Positions 1 to 11,348 of a stretch of 22,927 nt of DNA are shown here, one piece after another. Source of the DNA: a bacterium (GTDB lineage Bacteria; Chloroflexota; Dormibacteria; UBA8260; Bog-877); NCBI GenBank assembly GCA_021817025.1, contig JAKAWF010000023.1, forward strand, positions 1-22,927, in the 5' to 3' direction. Position 1 is the stretch's first letter. Each line of letters begins with the position of its first letter. The position numbers and the translations under genes are program-made. The notes below the pieces were generated by a model. It saw only the letters and a list, made by a program, of their open reading frames with translations. It had not been told where the DNA came from and searched no databases.

Positions 1-1008
1 TCTAACCGTGGCTTGGGGTTGGCGCTGATGCACGTACATGGCCTGCTTCAGGGCCACCATGCTGGTGACGTTTCCCAGGTAGGGGAGGTTGGCGCCGTCC
101 TCGGGCCCATCGCAGGCCAGGATCACCACTCGCTGAGCCGGCGCGCCGGTCGAGGGCCTGAGGATGTCGCCCTGCCGGGCGAGATCCTCCATCCCGACCG
201 AGGTGATCACGTCGGCGAGCTCCCCCAGCCCGTAGCGCGCGAAGTGCTCGTCTGGAGCCGGCTCGAAGCCGGTGGCGAGCACCACCGCGCCCACCTCCAG
301 CTGGTTCAACTGCCCGGCCTGGTCCAGGGCCGCCTTGAAGCGCCCGGGCTGGCCCGACACCTGGGTGACGGTGGTGGAAGTCAGCAGGGTCACGTTGGGA
401 TGGGCGGCGACCCGCTGCACCAGCGCCTCGGGGTCGAGGTCCAGGAGCGGGGACGAGGCCGAGGTGGGGTAGCCGCGGTGGATGCGGCGCGGGAAACCTC
501 CCGCCTGGGGCTCCCGGTCGACCAGGGTGACCTGGTACCCGGTGTCCGCGGCGGCGAGGGCGGCGCTCAGGCCGGCCGGGCCCGCGCCCACCACCAGGAC
601 CGACCGCTCATGGTCCTCCTGGTAGGGCGTGGGGGGACTCGTGTAGTGGGCGCCGGCTATCCCCATCCGCAGCAGATCCCCCGCCAGCTCCTGGGTCGAC
701 TCCTCCTGAGGTGGGTGGCTCCAGGCCACCTGTTCGCGCAGGTTGACCCGGCGCACCGGGAGCGGGCCGAAGCGAAACACCTGGCGGTTGACCCGCTGGG
801 AGCAGGCGGCGACCACCACGGAATCGAGTCCCTGGGCGGCATCCCCGGCGATCAGCCGGGCGTCCTCCAGGCAGAAGGCGGGCGAGCTCCGAGTCGTCGT
901 GACCCCGTCCTGGGCCTCGGCGAGCGAGGCCAGAGCATCGACGTCCATGCTCTCCCCGATGCCGCAGCCCCGGCAGATGTAGACCCCGGTCCGCTGTCCT
1001 GTGCTCAC
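1..1008 (-). CDS. qmoB: QmoB-like FAD/iron-sulfur subunit of the quinone-interacting membrane oxidoreductase (3' end off window)
   Basis: The visible 336 codons are the N-terminal part of an HdrA-like flavoprotein. QmoB belongs to the QmoABC complex, which exchanges electrons between APS reductase and the membrane quinone pool. The GTG start at 1008-1006 overlaps the qmoA stop in a GTGA arrangement. Residues 9-19 contain VYICRGCGIGE with Cys12 and Cys15, a start typical of QmoB, and further cysteines lie at 46 and 69. A dinucleotide-binding GAGPAG motif is at residues 141-146, and a second flavoprotein signature (VVLATGFEP) follows later. Family members are about 750 aa, so more than half, including the ferredoxin and MvhD-like parts, should lie beyond base 1, probably followed by qmoC. 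Placement directly after aprA-qmoA supports the call over a generic HdrA. Confidence 0.88.
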   Translation of the reverse strand, partial: MSTGQRTGVYICRGCGIGESMDVDALASLAEAQDGVTTTRSSPAFCLEDARLIAGDAAQGLDSVVVAACSQRVNRQVFRFGPLPVRRVNLREQVAWSHPPQEESTQELAGDLLRMGIAGAHYTSPPTPYQEDHERSVLVVGAGPAGLSAALAAADTGYQVTLVDREPQAGGFPRRIHRGYPTSASSPLLDLDPEALVQRVAAHPNVTLLTSTTVTQVSGQPGRFKAALDQAGQLNQLEVGAVVLATGFEPAPDEHFARYGLGELADVITSVGMEDLARQGDILRPSTGAPAQRVVILACDGPEDGANLPYLGNVTSMVALKQAMYVHQRQPQATVR

Positions 1009-2291
1009 GCTCCTGCCCTCACCCCCCGGACCAGGTCCAGGGCCCGCATCGCGGCGGCGGTGGCGTCCAGGGTCGAGGTGGCCACGTCCACGGGGGCCCG
1101 GGCGCAGCCCGCGGCGAACAGCCCTCCCCCGTCGGCGCCCTCGTCGAAGAAGCCGAAGACATCGCGGGCGTCGTCGCCCAGCGGTCCCATCGGGCCTGGG
1201 CTGGGCACCATGCCGGTGGCCAGCACCACCAGGTCCACTGGGACCCGCTCCATCCCGCCCTGCACCATGTCGTCGGCGACCACCACCAGCTGGCCGCTCT
1301 TGGGGTCGGCCACGATGTCGGCCACCTTGCCCTTGACCGCCCGCACCCCAGGATGGTCGAGCACTTGGGCGGCAAAGGTCTGGTAGGTCCCTGGGGTGCG
1401 CAGGTCGATGTGGAAGACATGGGCCTGCGCCTCGGGGTTGCGCTCGAGCAGGAGGCTGGCCTCCTTCAACGAGGCCAGACAGCAGATGCCGGAGCAGTAG
1501 GCGAGGTGCAGGCGGTCGCGGGAGCCGGCGCATTGCACGAAGGCCGCGCTCTTGACCGGAGAGCCGTCCGAGGGGCGCAGCAGGCGGCCTTCGGTGGGGC
1601 CGTTCTCGGCCAGCATCCGTTCGAACATCACGTTGGTGACCACGTCCGGGTGGTGACCGAACGCGAGGTTGACGATGGCGGAGGCGTCGTACGGCTGCCA
1701 GCCGGTGGCGAGGATCACCGCTCCCACCTCCAACTCGACTGTCTCCGGCTCCATGTGCAAGTCGATGGCCTGGTAGGGGCAGGCCTCGACGCACTTCCCA
1801 CACTGGTCGAAGAGGCAGGTCGAATCATCGATGGCGTAGCGCATGGGGAAGGCCATCTCGTGGCTTAGGCAGATGGTCTTGGCGGTGCTCATGCCGTAGT
1901 CGAAGGGGTTGGGGCGGTCCACCGGGCAGACCTCGCTGCAGGCGCCGCAGGCGGTGCAGCGTTCGTTGACGTAACGAGGATGGCGGCGGATCCTGGCCTG
2001 ATAGTGGCCCGGCCCCCCCCGGAGATCCTCCACCTCGGCCATGGTGAAGAGGCGGATGTCGGGGTTGTCGCGGAGGCGCTGGAAGTTGATCTCGAGGCCG
2101 CAGGCCGGAGGACAGAGCTTGGGGAAGTAGCGGGCCAGTTGGGCCACGCGCCCCCCCAGATGGGGATTCTTCTCCACCAGGTAAACCTGCGCGCCCGCCT
2201 CGGCGGCCTCCAGGGCGGCGGTCATCCCGGCGATCCCGCCACCCACCACCAGGATGCTCTCCGATGCCCCGGCCTCGCCAGTCGCCCCCAT
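1005..2291 (-). CDS. qmoA: QmoA-like FAD/iron-sulfur subunit of the quinone-interacting membrane oxidoreductase
   Basis: A 428-aa HdrA-related flavoprotein, predicted to pass electrons between AprBA and the rest of QmoABC. The FAD Rossmann motif GGGIAG is at residues 17-22, followed by the VEKNPHLGGR stretch. A conserved PKLCPPACGLE block lies at about 58-67. Two ferredoxin-like cysteine sets follow: C112, C115, C118, C122 and C159, C164, C167, C171. VQCAGSRD and a Cys-rich CSGICC block occur in the second half, as in known QmoA proteins. Length is close to the usual 410-430 aa. The reading frame stays open upstream, but the ATG at 2291-2289 was chosen because the flavin fold begins 12 residues later and the aprA stop is only 1 bp away. 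No clear Shine-Dalgarno is present, so translation is probably coupled to aprA. Confidence 0.93.
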   Translation of the reverse strand: MGATGEAGASESILVVGGGIAGMTAALEAAEAGAQVYLVEKNPHLGGRVAQLARYFPKLCPPACGLEINFQRLRDNPDIRLFTMAEVEDLRGGPGHYQARIRRHPRYVNERCTACGACSEVCPVDRPNPFDYGMSTAKTICLSHEMAFPMRYAIDDSTCLFDQCGKCVEACPYQAIDLHMEPETVELEVGAVILATGWQPYDASAIVNLAFGHHPDVVTNVMFERMLAENGPTEGRLLRPSDGSPVKSAAFVQCAGSRDRLHLAYCSGICCLASLKEASLLLERNPEAQAHVFHIDLRTPGTYQTFAAQVLDHPGVRAVKGKVADIVADPKSGQLVVVADDMVQGGMERVPVDLVVLATGMVPSPGPMGPLGDDARDVFGFFDEGADGGGLFAAGCARAPVDVATSTLDATAAAMRALDLVRGVRAGA

Positions 2292-2292
2292 C

Positions 2293-4158
2293 TCAGTCCA
2301 CGATCGAGTGGTGGGGATGGGTCGCCATGGTCCACTCCCCGGTGTCCTCGTGGTAGCTGGAGTTGACGAAGACCTTCCACTTCTGGTCGTCGATGTGGGG
2401 GTAGTCGCCACGGTAGTAGTACCCGGGCCAGCGCGTCTCCTCGCGGTAGAGGATGTGGCGCGCGTGGGCCTCGGCGACGCGGATCCGATCCCACAGCTCC
2501 CAACACCGCAACAGCTCGTGGCGGTCGCGGGCCGCCACCCGGCCCATGTCCTCCTTGAGGCTCTCCAGCAGTTCCAGGCCGCGCCGCAGGGTGGGCTCGT
2601 TGGTGATGTAGTTGGAGCCCAGCCCGGCCACGTATTCGTCCATCAGCTTCTGCAGTCGCAGGAGGCCCTGCTTGGGGTAGAAGTAGTTGGGGTTGATGTC
2701 CGGCTTGGTGGAACTGCCCTGGTACCTCTCGAAGACCCGGTAGGGCTCGAACAGCGTCTCGACGATGGCGTTGACCCGCTCCCCGTCCACGCTCGGGCGA
2801 TCCGGATTGTCGGTGATGAAGGCCATCGCCGCCTTGGCCGCCAACCGTCCCTCGGTGTAGGAGCCCGAGGAGAACTTGTGGGCGGACGCCCCGACCCCGT
2901 CCCCGGCGGCGAAGAGCCCGGGGACCGTGGTCATCCGGTTGTAGCCCCAGAAGTAGCCCTCGGCGGCGAGGTCCTCCGGGCCGCTGACCCAGGCGCCGGT
3001 GGCGGATGAGTGCGACCCCATCAGGTAGGGCTCGGTCAGGGTCAGCTCCGAGGGCTGGACCGCCGGGTCGATGTTGTTGGAGGCCCAGAGCAGCGCCTGC
3101 GACATGGTCATGTCCAGGAAGTCCTCCCAGGCATCGCTCTCGATCGCCCGGATGGCCTTGGGGTCCAGCCCCTGGGTGAGCGCCTGCAGCGCGTCGTCGG
3201 TGCGCATGTAGTGCGGCCCCTTCCCCTGGGCGCGGTCCAGCAGCATCTGGTGATTGCGGAGCGGGGTCGGGATCGGCCGGGTCTGGCCGTAGGGGGGGAA
3301 CTCATCCAGGGCCTTCGCCTGGGTGTCCTCGTACAGCTCTCCGTAGGCGTTGCGCACCTTGCCCTTGAAGAGCAGGAACCACATCCCCACCGGCCCGTAG
3401 CCATCCTTGAAGCGGGTGACCACCAGCCGGTGCTCCATCTGGGTCATGGTGGCGCCAGCCTTGATCATGAGCGAGTAGGCGGAGCCGGTGTTCCAGGGCG
3501 CGTACCAGATCCGCCCCAGTCCCTCGCCCACCGCGTGGGGCCGGAAGATCCCGGTGGCGCCTCCCGCCGAGGAGATCACCGCCCGGGCCTTGAACACGTA
3601 GACCTTGTGGTCGCGCACCGAGAAGCCGATGGCGCCCGAGACGTGCCCGGTGGCGGGATCCTTGAGGAGATCGGAGACGAAGATCCGTTCGTAGACGTTC
3701 TCGGGGCCGATCGCCTTCTTCGCCGCCTCCGCCACGATCGGCTTGAAGGACTCCCCGTGGATCATGATCTGCCAGCGGCCCTCGCGCTTGTAGTGGCCGT
3801 CCTCGGTCTTGAAGATGGGCAATCCCCACTTCTCGAACATGTGCACCGAGGAGTCGACGTGGCGGGCGATGTCGTAGACCAGGTCCTCCCGGCACAGGCC
3901 CATCAGGTCCTGGCGGACGTAGCGCACGAAGTCCTCGGGCTGGTTCTCTCCCCAGCGCATGCCCATGTAGCAGTTGATCGCCGACAGCCCCATCGCCGTC
4001 GCTCCGCTGCGCTCCACCGCTGCCTTCTCCACGATCGTGGTGCGCAGTCCATGGGCCCTGCCCCAGTACCCGGCTTCGAAGGCGGCACCGCAGCCTGCCA
4101 TGCCGCCGCCGAGGATCAGGAGGTCGGTCTCCACAACCTCAATCTCGGGCTGGTTCAT
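2293..4158 (-). CDS. aprA: Dissimilatory adenylylsulfate (APS) reductase, alpha subunit
   Basis: A 621-aa flavoprotein that interconverts APS and sulfite plus AMP, working with AprB in the cytoplasm. The FAD-binding GGGMAG is at residues 17-22. The region from VEKAAVERSG to AINCYMG (about 43-66) is characteristic of AprA. By eye, residues matching the described Archaeoglobus active site are present: Asn62, Trp222, Arg249 (in VTRFKDGYGPVG) and His382 (in GSHSSATG). Family members are about 620-660 aa, so the gene looks complete. The ATG at 4158-4156 overlaps the aprB stop (ATGA) and has a GGAGG about 5 nt upstream. The longer open frame reaching 4473 runs antiparallel to nothing useful and overlaps aprB, so it was trimmed. 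AprA exists in reductive and oxidative types, and which one this is needs a tree. Confidence 0.97.
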   Translation of the reverse strand: MNQPEIEVVETDLLILGGGMAGCGAAFEAGYWGRAHGLRTTIVEKAAVERSGATAMGLSAINCYMGMRWGENQPEDFVRYVRQDLMGLCREDLVYDIARHVDSSVHMFEKWGLPIFKTEDGHYKREGRWQIMIHGESFKPIVAEAAKKAIGPENVYERIFVSDLLKDPATGHVSGAIGFSVRDHKVYVFKARAVISSAGGATGIFRPHAVGEGLGRIWYAPWNTGSAYSLMIKAGATMTQMEHRLVVTRFKDGYGPVGMWFLLFKGKVRNAYGELYEDTQAKALDEFPPYGQTRPIPTPLRNHQMLLDRAQGKGPHYMRTDDALQALTQGLDPKAIRAIESDAWEDFLDMTMSQALLWASNNIDPAVQPSELTLTEPYLMGSHSSATGAWVSGPEDLAAEGYFWGYNRMTTVPGLFAAGDGVGASAHKFSSGSYTEGRLAAKAAMAFITDNPDRPSVDGERVNAIVETLFEPYRVFERYQGSSTKPDINPNYFYPKQGLLRLQKLMDEYVAGLGSNYITNEPTLRRGLELLESLKEDMGRVAARDRHELLRCWELWDRIRVAEAHARHILYREETRWPGYYYRGDYPHIDDQKWKVFVNSSYHEDTGEWTMATHPHHSIVD

Positions 4159-4610
4159 CACATCCTCCCGCTCGGTACCGGCAGCTTGTCCACGCCCAGC
4201 CAGGACCCCTCGGCGCACAGGTGGGGATCCTTGAGGGTGGCGAGGTCGGGGGCGGCCGCCCCCTCGAAAGGCTCGATGGATCCCCACTCGGTGCTGCGGA
4301 TCGGGTACTTGAACCGCTTCACCCGCTGGTCGCGGAACTGGACGGTCCACATGATGGACTCGGTGCCGCGCAGCGGGGTCAGGCTGGCCCCCAGGGGCAT
4401 CACGTCCGTGTAACCGCGCATCGCGATCGCTGACTGGGGGCAGGTCTTGACGCAGGCATAGCACTCCCAGCACTGGTCCGGCTCCTGGTTGAAAGCCCTG
4501 CCCATGGCCACGTCCAGCACCATCAAGTCGTTGGGGCAGATGTAGGCGCAGGCGGGCTTGTCGAGGGCCTTGCAGCCGTCACACTTGTCCGGATTGACAT
4601 AGGTCGGCAT
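4158..4610 (-). CDS. aprB: Dissimilatory adenylylsulfate (APS) reductase, beta (ferredoxin-like) subunit
   Basis: A 150-aa protein carrying two [4Fe-4S] clusters that feed electrons to or from the AprA flavin. Cluster ligands are visible as C10, C13, C21, C25 and C47, C50, C53, C57. Trp48 (in CWECYAC) sits where a tryptophan has been described between cluster and flavin in the Archaeoglobus enzyme. The C-terminal half (about 75-150) is the usual AprB tail that wraps AprA. The length is normal for the family. The start lies 2 bp downstream of the sat stop, with a GAGGAGG inside the sat 3' end about 8 nt upstream of the ATG. Its stop overlaps the aprA start. Confidence 0.97.
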   Translation of the reverse strand: MPTYVNPDKCDGCKALDKPACAYICPNDLMVLDVAMGRAFNQEPDQCWECYACVKTCPQSAIAMRGYTDVMPLGASLTPLRGTESIMWTVQFRDQRVKRFKYPIRSTEWGSIEPFEGAAAPDLATLKDPHLCAEGSWLGVDKLPVPSGRM

Positions 4611-6915: not shown

Positions 6916-7680
6916 CTACGCCCCTCCTATGTCAGCCGGCTTCACTCCAGTATGCGAGGGCCGTCTGGCCCTCGGGTTCCCCCGGGGGGGGCGATTACCA
7001 TCCCCCGAAAGGGGGAAATCTGGGCCGTCCGGGCTCCCCTGCCCGCTGTCGAGGAGACCCACCTGAAGGGCCGCCAGCACGGCTTCGAGCCGGTGCTTCT
7101 TGCCCATCTTGCGCAGGGTGTTCTTGACATGGCTGCGGACTGTCTCGTCACTGAGGAAGAGGCGACCGGCGATCTCGCGGTTGCTGAGCCCCTGGGCGAC
7201 CAGCCCCAGCACTTCCAACTCCCGCTGGCTGAGGTGCCACGGGCCACCTACCTCCCTGAAGCCACGCCGCGCCAGGGAGAGGATCTCACCGGTGACGGCC
7301 GGGTCCAGGTAGGACTGCCCGGCCGCCACGGCCCGGATCGCATCGCCCAGGTGGGCCACCGAGGTTTGCTTGACCAGGTAACCAGCGGCGCCGGCTTGCA
7401 CAGCCCCCATGACCTCCTGCGGACCATCGACCCCGGTGAGCACCAGCACCTTGGCCGTGGAGCCTTGCTGCTGGAGCAGACGCAGTGCCGCCAATCCTCC
7501 CATGCCGGGCATGCGCAGGTCCATCAGGATCACATCGGGCTGGAGTTCAGCGGCCCGGACGAGGGCCTCCTCGCCGCTGGCCGCGGTGCCGACCACTTCG
7601 ATGTCAGGGTTGGGCCCGAACATGAGCGCCAAGCCCTGGCGGACCAGCTCGTGGTCGTCGGCGACCAGGACCCGGATCAC
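6916..7680 (-). CDS. NarL/FixJ-family two-component response regulator
   Basis: A 254-aa DNA-binding response regulator, partner of the kinase encoded just upstream. The receiver domain covers residues about 2-120 with acidic residues Asp8 and Asp9, the phosphorylation site Asp54 (in MDLRMP), the LVLTG switch region and the GYLVKQ lysine. The LuxR-type helix-turn-helix follows (LSQRELEVLGLVAQG to TVRSHVKNTLRKMG). The start is a GTG at 7680-7678 overlapping the kinase stop (GTGA), so translation is probably coupled. The last 35 or so residues after the HTH are Pro/Gly/Arg-rich, have no counterpart in the family that I know of, and are encoded by DNA full of palindromes. The position just before sat-apr-qmo suggests control of that operon. 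Confidence 0.93.
   Translation of the reverse strand: MIRVLVADDHELVRQGLALMFGPNPDIEVVGTAASGEEALVRAAELQPDVILMDLRMPGMGGLAALRLLQQQGSTAKVLVLTGVDGPQEVMGAVQAGAAGYLVKQTSVAHLGDAIRAVAAGQSYLDPAVTGEILSLARRGFREVGGPWHLSQRELEVLGLVAQGLSNREIAGRLFLSDETVRSHVKNTLRKMGKKHRLEAVLAALQVGLLDSGQGSPDGPDFPLSGDGNRPPRGNPRARRPSHTGVKPADIGGA
6955..7016. promoter_or_regulatory. Cluster of perfect palindromes/hairpins in the 3' end of the response regulator gene
   Basis: Three structures lie within 62 bp. CGAGGGCC (6955-6962) pairs with GGCCCTCG (6967-6974) around a GTCT loop. A C5/G8 run occupies 6979-6991. TCCCCC (7001-7006) pairs with GGGGGA (7011-7016) around a GAAA tetraloop. They sit in the part of the regulator gene that encodes its odd C-terminal tail and upstream of the sulfur operon. 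They could be an operator for the dimeric regulator, RNA hairpins that slow transcription, or chance in GC-rich DNA. Function is inferred only from symmetry. Confidence 0.35.
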
Positions 7681-8831
7681 AAGGGGCTGCTGCCGGAAAA
7701 GGCCCTGTGCCGGGGGACTGCCGCCTCCAGCGTGGTTCCCGTACCGGGCTCGGACACGAGCTGGAGCCGTCCTCCCAGGGTCGCCAGCCGAGCCCGCATG
7801 CCCCGGATGCCGAACTGGGGCTTCATCTGGTCCTCCCGCAAGCCCGAGCCGTCGTCCGAGACCCGCAGCCGAACTGGGTCGGAGCCGGCATCCAGGACGA
7901 CCTTCACGTGGCGCGCCTGAGCGTGACGGGCCACGTTGCTGAGCGCCTCCTGGGCCACCGACAAGAAGGTGTGGCGCGCCTCGCGAGACAGGTCGGCGAA
8001 GTGTCCGCGCGCCTCCCACTCAAGTTCCAGGGGCGGTCCGGCCAGGTCCCCGAGATGTTCGCGCAACTGGCCCAGGAACTGCCGTTCCAGAAGCTCGGCC
8101 GGCCACAGATCGTAGATGCTCTGGCGCACCTGGACCAGGGTCTTCTCGACCAGGCGTTGGCATTCATCCAGGCGGTGCGCCTGCTCCTGGTCGTCCTTCT
8201 CGGCTGCTCGGGCGCAACCCTCGAGGGTGCAGGTGATGGCGAACAAGGACTGGATCACGGCGTCGTGCATGTCGATGGAGATCCGGGTTCGCTCCGCCTC
8301 CACCGCCAGCCGGCGGGTGCGGTCCACGCACATCCGGACGCCTGCGAGCGCCTCTCCGGCGTGGGCGGTGAAGCGCTCCAGGGCGGCTGTCAGCGGCGTG
8401 CTGAGGCCGCCTGCGGGGATCCCCACGGCGAGCAGCCCCAGCGGTTGCCCTCGGTAGCAGATCGCGGCGATGGCGCAGGGCGCGGCGATGAACTGGACCC
8501 GCACCAACCGCGCCGGGGTTGCGAAAGCTTTGGCGAGGGCACCTCCGTCAGCGATCGGCAGCGGCTGTTGCGCATCTGTTGTCAGCGTCTTCGCCGGGGC
8601 GCCATGCCAGTTGCCCACCCGGCGCTGAGCCTCGTCGACCAGGCCGACGGTGGCATCCGGCAGTCCCAGCGCCTCGCTGACGGCGGCCACGATGCATTCC
8701 TGGACCTCGTCCATGTCGCCGCTGCCGGCGACCGCCAGGCGCAGATGTTCCAGTGCCCTCAACTCGGCCCCGGCCAGACTGACCTGATCCTCGGCCATCG
8801 CTGGCGTGCCGGGGCCTATCGCCACTGGCAT
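7677..8831 (-). CDS. GAF-domain sensor histidine kinase (HisKA_3/NarL-partner type)
   Basis: A 384-aa cytoplasmic sensor kinase with no membrane segments. A GAF-like domain spans about residues 25-165 and would bind a soluble ligand or redox group. The dimerisation/phosphoacceptor helix holds ERTRISIDMHD with His189. The ATPase domain shows the N box (Asn299 in LSNVARHA), DDGSG at 326-330, GIRGM at 341-345 and GTGT at 363-366. Cysteines at 46, 119, 125, 168, 201, 206 and 224 could take part in redox or sulfur sensing, which is inference. It starts 13 bp after the ArsR gene and overlaps the regulator gene. A second in-frame ATG lies 11 codons in (8798), but the first has a GAG-rich stretch upstream. 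Confidence 0.92.
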   Translation of the reverse strand: MPVAIGPGTPAMAEDQVSLAGAELRALEHLRLAVAGSGDMDEVQECIVAAVSEALGLPDATVGLVDEAQRRVGNWHGAPAKTLTTDAQQPLPIADGGALAKAFATPARLVRVQFIAAPCAIAAICYRGQPLGLLAVGIPAGGLSTPLTAALERFTAHAGEALAGVRMCVDRTRRLAVEAERTRISIDMHDAVIQSLFAITCTLEGCARAAEKDDQEQAHRLDECQRLVEKTLVQVRQSIYDLWPAELLERQFLGQLREHLGDLAGPPLELEWEARGHFADLSREARHTFLSVAQEALSNVARHAQARHVKVVLDAGSDPVRLRVSDDGSGLREDQMKPQFGIRGMRARLATLGGRLQLVSEPGTGTTLEAAVPRHRAFSGSSPL

Positions 8832-9223: not shown

Positions 9224-9787
9224 TCAGATGAAGAGGGAGACGTCGGCGTCGGAGGCCCAGTCCAGGAAGGTGGCGGCGCCGCAGGGTGCCTCGGCACCGT
9301 TCATGAGGTCGCCCGCCGCGTAGCCGAAGACCCCCATCGTCATCGCACACGGCATCAGGCGCACCCCGCCAGCGACGGCGGCCTCCAGCAGGTCGTCGAT
9401 GGAGGCGACGCCGTGGGACTTGAACATCGACTTCATCACCTTGGTCCCGAGCGAGGTCATGCCCGGGATCGCGCCCAGCAGGTTGGGGACCGGCATGGGC
9501 ATGGCCGGGTTGCCCAGCGGCGCCACCTGCAGCTTGACCTGCTTCTGGCGGTGGATGATGTTCAGCCCGTAGAAGGTGAAGAAGATGGCGGCATCCCAGC
9601 CCAGGGCGGCGGCGGTGGTGGCCAGAATCAGGGGAGGGTAGGCCATGTCGAGGCTCCCCTTGGTCGAGATCAGGGCGATCTTCTTGGTGCGCTCAGCCTC
9701 GTGCTGGGCCTTCTCGGCGAGGTACGTATCGACGGCCTGTCTCACCAGCGCCTGCATCTCTTCTGGGGCGGACACTTGCACCTGCAT
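9224..9787 (-). CDS. DsrE2-like (DsrE/DsrF/DrsH superfamily) sulfur-transfer protein
   Basis: A 187-aa member of the DsrE2 group. These proteins carry protein-bound persulfide sulfur, often alongside TusA and rhodanese proteins in sulfur oxidisers. After a charged leader (1-35) the fold starts at KKIALISTKGSLD. The likely active cysteine is Cys147 in LMPCAMTMGVFGY, matching the CxxT/SM signature of DsrE2. A second one, Cys169, lies in EAPCGAATFLDWA. The start at 9787 has a clear GGAGG 7-8 nt upstream, and the earlier in-frame ATG at 9844 is inside the promoter. It is the first gene of the minus-strand unit and is divergent from another DsrE-family gene. Confidence 0.9.
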   Translation of the reverse strand: MQVQVSAPEEMQALVRQAVDTYLAEKAQHEAERTKKIALISTKGSLDMAYPPLILATTAAALGWDAAIFFTFYGLNIIHRQKQVKLQVAPLGNPAMPMPVPNLLGAIPGMTSLGTKVMKSMFKSHGVASIDDLLEAAVAGGVRLMPCAMTMGVFGYAAGDLMNGAEAPCGAATFLDWASDADVSLFI

Positions 9788-9840
9788 CGCAATACCTCCG
9801 AGCCGGCCTTGTCCGGAACCCCCAGGACAGGAGGTCAGCC

Positions 9841-9865
9841 ACATTCGGATGTCGGCATATTATGC
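9841..9865. promoter_or_regulatory. Candidate operator: two adjacent palindromes in the divergent promoter
   Basis: ACATTCGGATGT (9841-9852) has 4-bp arms around TCGG, and GCATATTATGC (9855-9865) is a perfect 5-bp-arm palindrome. The second covers the -10 element of the minus-strand promoter, the usual place for an ArsR-family repressor to block RNA polymerase. Assigning it to the ArsR protein encoded two genes downstream is inference from position and symmetry. Confidence 0.5.
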
Positions 9866-9884
9866 TTCTCGCGCCCCAAGTCAA
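9857..9884 (-). promoter_or_regulatory. Sigma70-like promoter of the dsrE2-arsR-kinase-regulator unit
   Basis: On the minus strand TTGACT (9884-9879) and TAATAT (9862-9857) are separated by 16 bp, a near-consensus pair inside an unusually AT-rich patch of a GC-rich region. The predicted transcript would start near 9850, about 60 nt before the dsrE2-like ATG. No equally good pair was found for the plus-strand genes, whose promoter must lie in the same 131-bp gap. Confidence 0.7.
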
Positions 9885-9918
9885 GGGCCGGCTGGTCCGC
9901 GGTCGTCAGGAGGGTGCC

Positions 9919-10293
9919 ATGGCGAACAAGTTGCTGATCATGATGACCTCGGGTCCGGAGTCGCCCCATCGACTCGGAACCCCCTTCTTCCAGGCGATGG
10001 CGGCGGCCGCCCTCGACTACGAGGTGCTGATCGTGAGCACCATGGATGCGACCCTGCTGCTCAAGAAGGGCGTGGCGGAGACCCTGACCGTGAAGGAAGG
10101 CGCCCACAAGACGGTGCTCGACTTCATCAAGGAGGCCAAGTCAGCCGGGGTGGGCCTCTACGTCTGTCCCGCCTCGCTGTCCCTGCACGACCTCACCATG
10201 GAGGACCTGATCCCCGAGGTGGACGCGGCCATGGGCGCGGCGCGCTACTCCGAGGTCGGCCTGGACGACGACTGCAGGGTCTTCTGCTACTGA
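9919..10293 (+). CDS. DsrE-family protein (DsrE/DsrF-like fold)
   Basis: A 124-aa DsrE-superfamily protein, probably a persulfide carrier. The fold begins KLLIMMTSGPES. The likely active cysteine is Cys83 in LYVCPASLSLH, followed by the conserved EDLIPEVDAAMGAARY stretch (95-110). The C-terminus DDDCRVFCY adds Cys119 and Cys123, two residues from the end. The ATG at 9919 has AGGAGG 5-6 nt upstream, and the in-frame ATG at 9862 lacks this. It is divergent from the DsrE2-like gene, and its stop overlaps the next ATG by 1 base (TGATG). Sulfur-carrier function comes from the family. The partner is unknown. Confidence 0.88.
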   Translation: MANKLLIMMTSGPESPHRLGTPFFQAMAAAALDYEVLIVSTMDATLLLKKGVAETLTVKEGAHKTVLDFIKEAKSAGVGLYVCPASLSLHDLTMEDLIPEVDAAMGAARYSEVGLDDDCRVFCY

Positions 10294-10487
10294 TGGCCGG
10301 GGAAGATACCCCCGAGTTCACGATCCGGAGCCGCCGGCGGGGGACCTTTCGGCTCCAGAGTCCCGACGGGACTCCCCTGAGCTTCGGTTCGCGGGATCGC
10401 GCTGAGGCCGTGTGCTCCGCGCTCAATCGCGAGGACCCCAACGATGAGGAGCCAGAATACGTGGTGGAGGCAGTGTCCCAGCGATGA
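10293..10487 (+). CDS. Unrecognised 64-aa protein between the DsrE-like and ubiquitin-like genes
   Basis: A small, charged open frame that I do not recognise. Its ATG shares a base with the DsrE-like stop (TGATG), and its own stop overlaps the next start (ATGA), so both junctions point to real coupled translation. Residues 8-31 alternate as for two or three beta strands (FTIRSRRRGTFRLQ, then TPLSFGS), residues 34-46 look helical (DRAEAVCSALNRE) and the tail is acidic then hydrophobic (EEPEYVVEAV). One cysteine, Cys41. No membrane segment or signal peptide. It could be an adaptor or a chaperone for one of its neighbours, which is speculation. Confidence 0.7.
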   Translation: MAGEDTPEFTIRSRRRGTFRLQSPDGTPLSFGSRDRAEAVCSALNREDPNDEEPEYVVEAVSQR

Positions 10488-10759
10488 ACGAGAACAGCGA
10501 GAACCTTGACCGGGCCCGTCTCACCGTCACCTCGGCCGGCGAGAGCAGAGAGTTCCGCCTGTCGTGGGGGACCACGGTTGGTGAGGTCGAGAAGGCCGTG
10601 GCCGACGCCTTCGGCATAGACCCAGCGTCCCGGCTGGAGCTGTGGGGCGCGGATGGCACCAGCTTGTCCAACAAGCTGGAGCGGACTCTTGGGGAGTTCA
10701 AGGAGCGGCGGATCTGTCCCAAGCTGGCGTTCGAGTTCCGCGGTCAGAACCTGCCGTGA
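10484..10759 (+). CDS. Small ubiquitin-like (beta-grasp) protein
   Basis: A 91-aa protein whose pattern follows ubiquitin: strand ARLTVTSAG (11-19), strand SREFRLSWG (21-29), helix TVGEVEKAVADAFG (31-44), the PASRLELWGADGTSL segment (47-61) like ubiquitin's QQRLIFAGKQL, TLGEFKERRI (68-77) like TLSDYNIQKE, and a last strand KLAFEFRG (80-87) like HLVLRLRG. This alignment was made by eye. The C-terminus is GQNLP, so the di-glycine tail needed for conjugation or thiocarboxylation is missing. One cysteine, Cys78. The ATG at 10484 overlaps the preceding stop by 4 bp. Its place in a sulfur-carrier operon recalls beta-grasp sulfur carriers (ThiS, MoaD), although those need the Gly-Gly end. Confidence 0.75.
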   Translation: MNENSENLDRARLTVTSAGESREFRLSWGTTVGEVEKAVADAFGIDPASRLELWGADGTSLSNKLERTLGEFKERRICPKLAFEFRGQNLP

Positions 10760-11234: not shown

Positions 11235-11348
11235 AACTAGGGACCACCCAGGGAGAGTGTTAGCCAGTAACTAGGGACCACCCAGAGAGGTTTTGGCCAC
11301 AAACTAGGGACCACCCCAGGCCGTTTTAGCCAGGAACTAGGGACCACC
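11235..11348. repeat. Array of four direct repeats, 33-34 bp period
   Basis: The core AACTAGGGACCACC begins at 11235, 11269, 11302 and 11335 (periods 34, 33, 33). The inter-core segments also share a GTTTTAGCCAG-like end (11262-11268, 11291-11301, 11323-11334), so the whole unit is repeated with decay. Read on the minus strand the core is GGTGGTCCCTAGTT preceded by CTGGCTAAAAC. Subterminal multi-copy repeats of this general type (a GGTCCC block near a TGGCC block) are what I recall for IS21-family element ends, but no transposase gene is attached, so the assignment is tentative. Confidence 0.75.

Follow-up and report, generated by a model that had tools for sequence, protein, structure and literature searches.

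A ubiquitin-fold protein lacking a terminal Gly-Gly is encoded in a DsrE operon among sulfur-oxidation genes of Dormibacteria-like Chloroflexota

Introduction

Ubiquitin-like modifiers are held to derive from prokaryotic sulfur-transfer proteins (PMC5654768). In the Bil systems (BilABCD), BilA has been described with two ubiquitin-like (Ubl) domains (PMC11354881). TmoB, YukD and RnfH are bacterial ubiquitin-fold proteins outside conjugation, and TmoB binds its monooxygenase as a subunit (Iyer et al. 2006, PMC1779556).

On the sulfur side, the genes dsrE3A-dsrE2B-tusA of Metallosphaera cuprina adjoin hdr-like genes; the same source names the structure 3MC3 as DsrE3A and defines the DsrE3A subgroup by the motif Cys-X7-Cys (PMC4175335). 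In the sHdr-LbpA route, sulfur is described as passing from rhodanese to DsrE3C and on to sHdr-LbpA, possibly with TusA, and SoxR is described as a two-cysteine sulfane-sulfur sensor (PMC11582611). Among the matches listed by our searches of the open-licence literature, we found neither the gene triplet described below nor a link between ubiquitin-like, DsrE and heterodisulfide reductase-like proteins. The papers on sHdr, DsrE3C, LbpA and TusA found in that literature left ubiquitin unmentioned, and none was found there that joined Dormibacter with ubiquitin.

Here we analyse a stretch of 22,927 nucleotides of bacterial DNA, which we call the window. It holds three genes, for a DsrE-like protein, a protein of 64 amino acids (s64) and a ubiquitin-fold protein of 91 amino acids (UBL). 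These form one translationally coupled operon in Dormibacteria-like Chloroflexota with sulfur-oxidation genes.

Results

Gene layout and conservation

The three genes of the triplet lie on the plus strand with overlapping ends:

9919-10293, plus strand: dsrE-like ORF, 124 aa, with AGGAGG directly 5′
10293-10487, plus strand: 64-aa ORF (s64), overlapping dsrE by 1 bp
10484-10759, plus strand: 91-aa ubiquitin-fold ORF (UBL), overlapping the 64-aa ORF by 4 bp

Profiles of UBL, DsrE and s64 were each searched separately in 110 genomes of the class. The UBL was found at E<=1e-33 in 4 genomes, and the identical four were recovered with DsrE at E<=1e-72 (E=3.6e-73 or better) and with s64 at E<=1e-33. 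Nine other genomes of the class held only a distant DsrE; the best of these (1.8e-22) came from a genome without strong s64 or UBL matches. In all four genomes, as in the window, the triplet genes were adjacent and in the same order, giving five loci (the window and L001-L004). The four are related metagenome-assembled genomes of unstated completeness, first reached through DsrE. Four s64 matches at E 0.0016-0.0097 were excluded from the s64 count. In a sample of the phylum, where no more than 13 candidates were scored in each genome, the UBL profile matched 5 of 400 genomes at E<=0.01, three of them triplet genomes; a match in G317 (E=0.0058) and one in G420 (E=4.7e-4, spanning three stops) were excluded from the family. 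In two other phyla, none of 297 and none of 299 genomes was matched, in a search that had no positive control and tells little. Close relatives carry various database names, several being Candidatus Dormibacteria, Dormibacteraeota or Chloroflexi and others Thermomicrobiaceae or Nanopelagicaceae; the window presumably belongs with the former set.

Pairwise dN/dS among the five loci was below 1 in all 30 comparisons (10 per gene), ranging over 0.05-0.25 for DsrE, 0.12-0.49 for s64 and 0.27-0.67 for UBL. The triplet exceeds chance because its proteins are conserved in four further loci and dN/dS is below 1, which rules out chance ORFs; its presence in 4 of the 110 genomes likewise rules out a triplet confined to the window genome. 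The preliminary description of this DNA had reported the overlaps of 1 and 4 bp on the plus strand, had placed the genes next to a DsrE2-like gene and an apr-qmo cluster, and had named recurrence of the triplet in other genomes as a test. The ORF coordinates agree with the first of these points and Pfam and NCBIfam matches with the second, and the four further loci, with the genes adjacent in each, show the recurrence.

The starts of s64 vary. In L002 (1200-1395), the conserved 64-aa frame has no ATG, GTG or TTG near the dsrE end, as checked from 60 bases 5′ of the dsrE stop to the conserved part of the frame; this is an unusual start or an assembly error. In L004, the s64 frame may begin within dsrE. 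A tandem repeat with a 33-bp unit in 3.4 copies lies 3′ of the operon, at 11235-11348.

Sulfur-oxidation surroundings

Upstream of the triplet, the window encodes regulatory and sulfur-oxidation proteins on the opposite strand:

9788..9918, no strand assigned: intergenic region between the divergent genes; block at 9839-9868 conserved in the five-locus alignment
9224..9844 (ORF; likely start near 9787), minus strand: DsrE2-type protein, divergent from the triplet, PF13686 158 bits
8845..9297, minus strand: ArsR/SmtB-family regulator, NF033788 84.6 bits (cut-off of 55 exceeded)
7677..8831, minus strand: probable histidine kinase, recognised by eye, with homologues in L001, L003 and L004
6916..7665, inside ORF 6916-8019, minus strand: probable LuxR-type response regulator, recognised by eye, with homologues in L001, L003 and L004
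4613..5932 (ORF; true start probably further in), minus strand: sat, sulfate adenylyltransferase, PF01747 293 bits
4158..4610, minus strand: aprB, TIGR02060 188 bits (cut-off exceeded)
2293..4473 (ORF), minus strand: aprA, TIGR02061 918 bits (cut-off exceeded)
1005..2411, minus strand: HdrA/QmoA-like flavoprotein, NF040770 370 bits (under the cut-off of 1100)

The DsrE2-type protein also matched NF047629, at 179 bits and thus under the curated cut-off of 210, and adjoins the triplet in all of L001-L004. For sat, NF003166 and TIGR00339 both exceeded their cut-offs. The true start of aprA is probably near 4160, because the match starts at residue 117. We infer the name QmoA for the HdrA-like flavoprotein from its place beside aprBA; its homologues likewise adjoin aprBA in the genomes of L001, L003 and L004. 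A phosphoesterase-like ORF, noticed by eye, also lies upstream of and divergent from the triplet. In these three genomes, homologues of ArsR, DsrE2, the kinase, the response regulator, the phosphoesterase, sat, aprBA and HdrA/QmoA share the contig of the triplet, with ArsR on the same side. The L002 contig is short and includes, at its edge, DsrE2 and a stretch resembling ArsR.

Palindromes occur in the block corresponding to 9839-9868 in L002 and in L004, where the sequence is ATATTCGAATAT. The inverted-repeat score of the dsrE2/dsrE intergenic region was matched by 13-97 of 500 shuffles across the five loci. These features hint, weakly, that the block may be an ArsR-type operator.

Two of the triplet contigs, those examined further, carry sHdr-like genes. 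On the L004 contig, models of HdrB, HdrA, HdrC/TfrB-type and EtfB proteins were matched, all under their curated cut-offs, and similar HdrB-, HdrA-, HdrC- and EtfB-like ORFs were seen by eye on the L001 contig. Both contigs encode GCV_H proteins of the LbpA kind together with lipoyl ligases, and an ORF of the L001 contig proved, when tested, to be a TusA. The gene content of the two contigs resembles the sHdr-LbpA gene set. Between the HdrA-like and HdrC-like genes of L004 (3962-4705) lies a gene for a 247-aa protein with no Pfam (E<=0.001) or NCBIfam (E<=1e-5) match.

The DsrE protein

The window DsrE matched PF02635 (39 bits) and PF13686 (35 bits), both in excess of the cut-off, and its closest solved relative, in a profile search against PDB sequences, was 3MC3 (E=1.3e-12). 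Cys83 occupies the active-site position; it was invariant in sets of 29 and 15 aligned sequences and aligns with a cysteine of 3MC3. The protein thus combines membership of the DsrE/DsrF family with the active-site cysteine of a DsrE3 sulfurtransferase. The Cys-X7-Cys motif of DsrE3A is absent from it: residues 83-91 read CPASLSLHD, the second cysteine being missing. With regard to the linkage that characterises DsrE3B/C, LbpA-like genes shared the contig with the triplet in both contigs examined, not immediately adjacent. A C-terminal CRVFCY, present in 5/5 triplet loci and 26 of 82 database relatives, appears to mark the DsrE group of the triplet.

DsrE relatives were also seen at L005:3402-3773 (59%) and L006:1350-1670 (52%), in metagenome-assembled genomes labelled Thiohalobacter and Acidobacteriota. 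Neither s64 nor UBL was seen 3′ of these genes, and no UBL match was present in either genome. In L006, a GCV_H-like frame, recognised by eye, follows the DsrE relative. The database protein P0033 has a DsrE of the triplet group in frame with an HdrB-like N-terminal sequence, either a fusion or an assembly chimera.

The ubiquitin-fold protein and the 64-aa protein

The window UBL gave no Pfam or NCBIfam match at E<=1, and its comparison with PDB sequences was uninformative; with the UBL profile, the best match to PDB sequences was ubiquilin-2 (E=0.55). An AlphaFold2 model (pLDDT 82.8, pTM 0.70) was built from a 72-row alignment, consisting of 70 of the 120 listed family proteins and 2 loci. 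Its predicted fold is beta-beta-alpha-beta-helix-beta, and its best structural matches in the PDB (Foldseek/VIA) were ubiquitin-family domains.

A search with the single window sequence recovered, apart from the window protein itself, 2 relatives. With a 7-row profile, built after reading four related loci, 140 database proteins were found at E<=0.1, counting that of the window. The UBL belongs to an unnamed protein family. Residues were counted in the 120 best of the 140 proteins plus three locus sequences, 123 in total (121 distinct). Among the 22 positions counted, Trp28, Gly58, Arg67, Leu69 and Cys78 were invariant. Pro79 was found in 119/123 sequences and Cys55 in 120/123, two of the remaining three having Ser; the window UBL is the only one of the 123 with Gly55. 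The tail beyond position 86 is variable, with 1-16 residues. The window protein ends in EFRGQNLP; none of the 123 sequences ends in GG, and 3/123 contain GG among the last 12 residues. The 91-aa protein had been described as resembling ubiquitin along its whole length, as lacking Gly-Gly and as perhaps relying on Cys78. The predicted beta-grasp fold, with ubiquitin-family domains as its best matches, upholds the resemblance against a fold of another kind, and the family alignment agrees on both the tail and the cysteine.

Among 72 family members, the YukD model was matched by 24 at E<=1 (best E=0.0036), and no Pfam match to TusA was found at E<=1. Weak Pfam matches outside the ubiquitin fold were to AglB_L1 in 8 members (best 0.0052) and DUF4892 in 6 (best 0.02).

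The s64 protein is a conserved protein of unknown family. Cys41 and the stretch LNREDPND are invariant in 5/5 loci. It had no Pfam or NCBIfam match at E<=1. Its predicted structure is strand-helix-strand (pLDDT 82.3, in a model built from 5 sequences only), and the fold search against the PDB gave no match at E<=0.001 (best E=2.0).

Relation to Bil-type modifiers

In the phylum sample, the UBL profile found a distant homologue in genome G389 (E=2.1e-7); alignment of the UBL family with this Ubl by hhalign gave a probability of 95.5% and E=1.5e-8. The G389 Ubl gene precedes matches to BilB, BilC and BilD (E 7e-5, 8.5e-7 and 6e-9), and the ThiF match in this operon was slightly under the Pfam cut-off. 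The UBL family is thus homologous to a Ubl whose gene stands with those for an E2, an E1 and a JAB protein. A second Bil-type Ubl, 60% identical to that of G389, was found in G506 (2 of 177 genomes of that class). Its gene precedes a BilB-like and a BilD-like gene (BilD E=1.3e-13), with a JAB-like frame between them seen by eye. Close to the C terminus, both Ubls carry SGG with A or AVDA after it, an arrangement that would fit a JAB-processed modifier. They keep Cys55 and Cys78, with Arg or His after Cys78 in place of Pro79.

The two Bil-like operons (L014:5111-7862 and L042:6729-9488; Ubl, E2, JAB and E1) encode single-domain Ubls of 93 and 96 aa. Neither Ubl was recognised by PADLOC at E<=0.01; Pfam was tried for the L014 Ubl only. 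The L042 operon continues into restriction-modification-like genes, judged by eye.

The window UBL itself matched the BilA model weakly (E=0.0027). At E<=0.1, 6 of 72 family members matched this model and 66 did not, which argues against too close a link between the UBL and Bil. BilB was found in 0/4 triplet genomes and in 2/2 controls, the control scores being weak (E 8e-4 and 1.4e-3). The BilD model was matched in 3/4 triplet genomes, on contigs other than that of the triplet. These matches were partial: in frames of 292-436 aa they covered model positions ~202-320 of 453, as would be expected of MoeB-type proteins. The Bil-like E1 of G389 had no match at E<=0.001 in the four genomes. BilB together with BilD was thus not found alongside the UBL in any of them, and none of the 123 UBL sequences ends in the GG that conjugation would use. 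On these results, which come from genome-wide searches for BilB, BilD and a G389-type E1, we reject conjugation by local machinery. The UBL family shares a common ancestor with Bil-type modifiers and lacks what conjugation requires, the loss having presumably occurred in the sulfur family.

Discussion

The triplet may serve a joint sulfur-handling function. We tentatively favour, at a little short of an even chance, a reading in which the UBL serves sHdr-type sulfur oxidation by docking, without conjugation, onto a DsrE3-type sulfurtransferase. The sulfurtransferase would hold sulfane sulfur on Cys83. The UBL would bind it non-covalently, probably via residues 57-79, where its conservation is highest, and together with the 64-aa protein would steer sulfur transfer to downstream sHdr/LbpA acceptors. 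Its place next to DsrE3 would then be comparable to that of TusA next to dsrE3A-dsrE2B in Metallosphaera. In favour of docking are the strong matches to all three profiles in the same 4 of 110 genomes, dN/dS below 1 for each gene, the predicted ubiquitin fold without a terminal GG, the homology to Bil-type Ubls in genomes where BilB was not found, the sulfur-gene surroundings and the match of DsrE to 3MC3, with the Metallosphaera cluster as a precedent. Other observations count against it. The UBL has diverged much faster than DsrE (39-56% identity to the window protein vs 78-95%), a divergence for which a tight conserved interface would have no need; the cysteines at positions 55 and 78 are found in the two Bil-type relatives as well; and only 5 loci have a visible context, the window included, all from related genomes.

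The cysteines invite other readings. Sulfane sulfur or a thiosulfonate might pass from Cys83 of DsrE3 to Cys78 of the UBL and then to LbpA/sHdr, the UBL being a sulfur carrier. The invariance of Cys78 (123/123) and the proline that nearly always follows it (119/123; Arg or His in the two Bil-type relatives) are in keeping with such a carrier, as are the place of the UBL where the Metallosphaera cluster has tusA and the C-terminal CRVFCY of DsrE in 5/5 triplet loci. However, the Bil-type relatives, for which nothing points to a sulfur role, also have both cysteines, and the L001 genome has a TusA gene of its own on the contig, so that we consider a carrier possible but doubtful. A fuller version, in which a Bil-related UBL was stripped of its glycine tail and now carries sulfur through Cys78-Pro79 between DsrE3 and the sHdr/lipoate machinery, is unlikely. 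The pair Cys55/Cys78 (120/123 and 123/123, and both in the two Bil-type relatives) might instead be structural or redox-sensing, bonded as a disulfide or binding a metal. On this reading the UBL would sense redox state or sulfane sulfur and thereby switch DsrE or the pathway, and would not act as a carrier. An ArsR-type regulator does adjoin the operon, but the window UBL and two others are without Cys55, and the window ArsR has a single cysteine, unlike the two-cysteine SoxR; we regard a sensor as quite improbable.

Two further readings would remove the UBL from sulfur transfer. Since both s64 and UBL diverge faster than dsrE, they might be passengers, co-transcribed without a functional link to it; the strong matches, however, occur only together, in 4 of 110 genomes, in overlapping or close frames and common surroundings, which makes passengers very improbable. 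Conjugation or processing of the UBL by an E1/JAB from another part of the genome has the slightest chance of all. UBL homologues in Bil-like operons and the partial BilD-model matches on other contigs of 3/4 triplet genomes are what it could draw on. Against it stand the 0/123 sequences ending in GG, the failure to find BilB in the four triplet genomes (controls 2/2, with weak scores), and the MoeB-like character of the partial BilD matches together with the lack of a G389-type E1 at E<=0.001.

The core of the preliminary description largely stands: the ubiquitin fold, the triplet, the sulfur context, the missing Gly-Gly and the hint at Cys78. Its analogy to the thiocarboxylates of ThiS and MoaD finds no support, given a variable tail (1-16 residues after position 86) that never ends in GG; we reject a thiocarboxylate carrier on this ground. 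Its suggestion of C-terminal processing is likewise unsupported, given the same tail and the failure to find a BilB-like E2 in the four triplet genomes.

Our results suggest that a bacterial relative of ubiquitin has been re-used in sulfur energy metabolism. The sequence evidence ties a Bil-type modifier to a sulfur-oxidation operon, possibly the path from sulfur transfer to modifier taken in reverse. Two unnamed protein families, that of the 64-aa protein and that of the UBL, gain a place in a pathway, and the UBL becomes a candidate partner, open to testing, in the sulfur relay of DsrE3 and sHdr-LbpA. If Cys78 were a carrier after all, it would provide a second chemical route for sulfur carriage by a ubiquitin fold, through a side-chain cysteine and not a C-terminal thiocarboxylate, and would put such carriage into energy metabolism, not cofactor biosynthesis.

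Comparison with known systems

The UBL shares the ubiquitin fold with the Bil Ubls, but it lacks Gly-Gly, has no E2 or E1 neighbours, sits in a DsrE operon and has one Ubl domain where BilA has two. With ThiS and MoaD it has the beta-grasp fold and a sulfur context in common; it differs in that no adjacent E1 was seen and that the C-terminal Gly-Gly, the thiocarboxylate site, is missing from the ends of the 123 UBL sequences. Without a C-terminal glycine there would be no adenylation and therefore no thiocarboxylate, unlike in ThiS and MoaD.

TusA resembles the UBL in being a small protein encoded with DsrE-type proteins and in having a cysteine followed by proline, its motif containing Cys-Pro; the TusA fold differs from the ubiquitin fold. 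The Metallosphaera cuprina cluster is similar in placing a DsrE3-like beside a DsrE2-like protein, and Hdr-like and lipoate genes lie on the triplet contig in two relatives of the window. It differs in that the place of tusA is taken in the triplet by the 64-aa and UBL genes.

TmoB, YukD and RnfH share with the UBL the ubiquitin fold and a dedicated operon, and TmoB, as an enzyme-bound subunit, comes closest to the mode of action proposed here. The operon of the UBL differs from theirs in concerning sulfur transfer, and no secretion, monooxygenase or Rnf genes were noticed adjoining it; ESX-type neighbours, expected of YukD, were not noticed on reading through the loci. Like these proteins, the UBL of the triplet would be a bacterial protein of ubiquitin fold that is not conjugated and has an operon of its own, one that is tied in this case to DsrE and sulfur oxidation.
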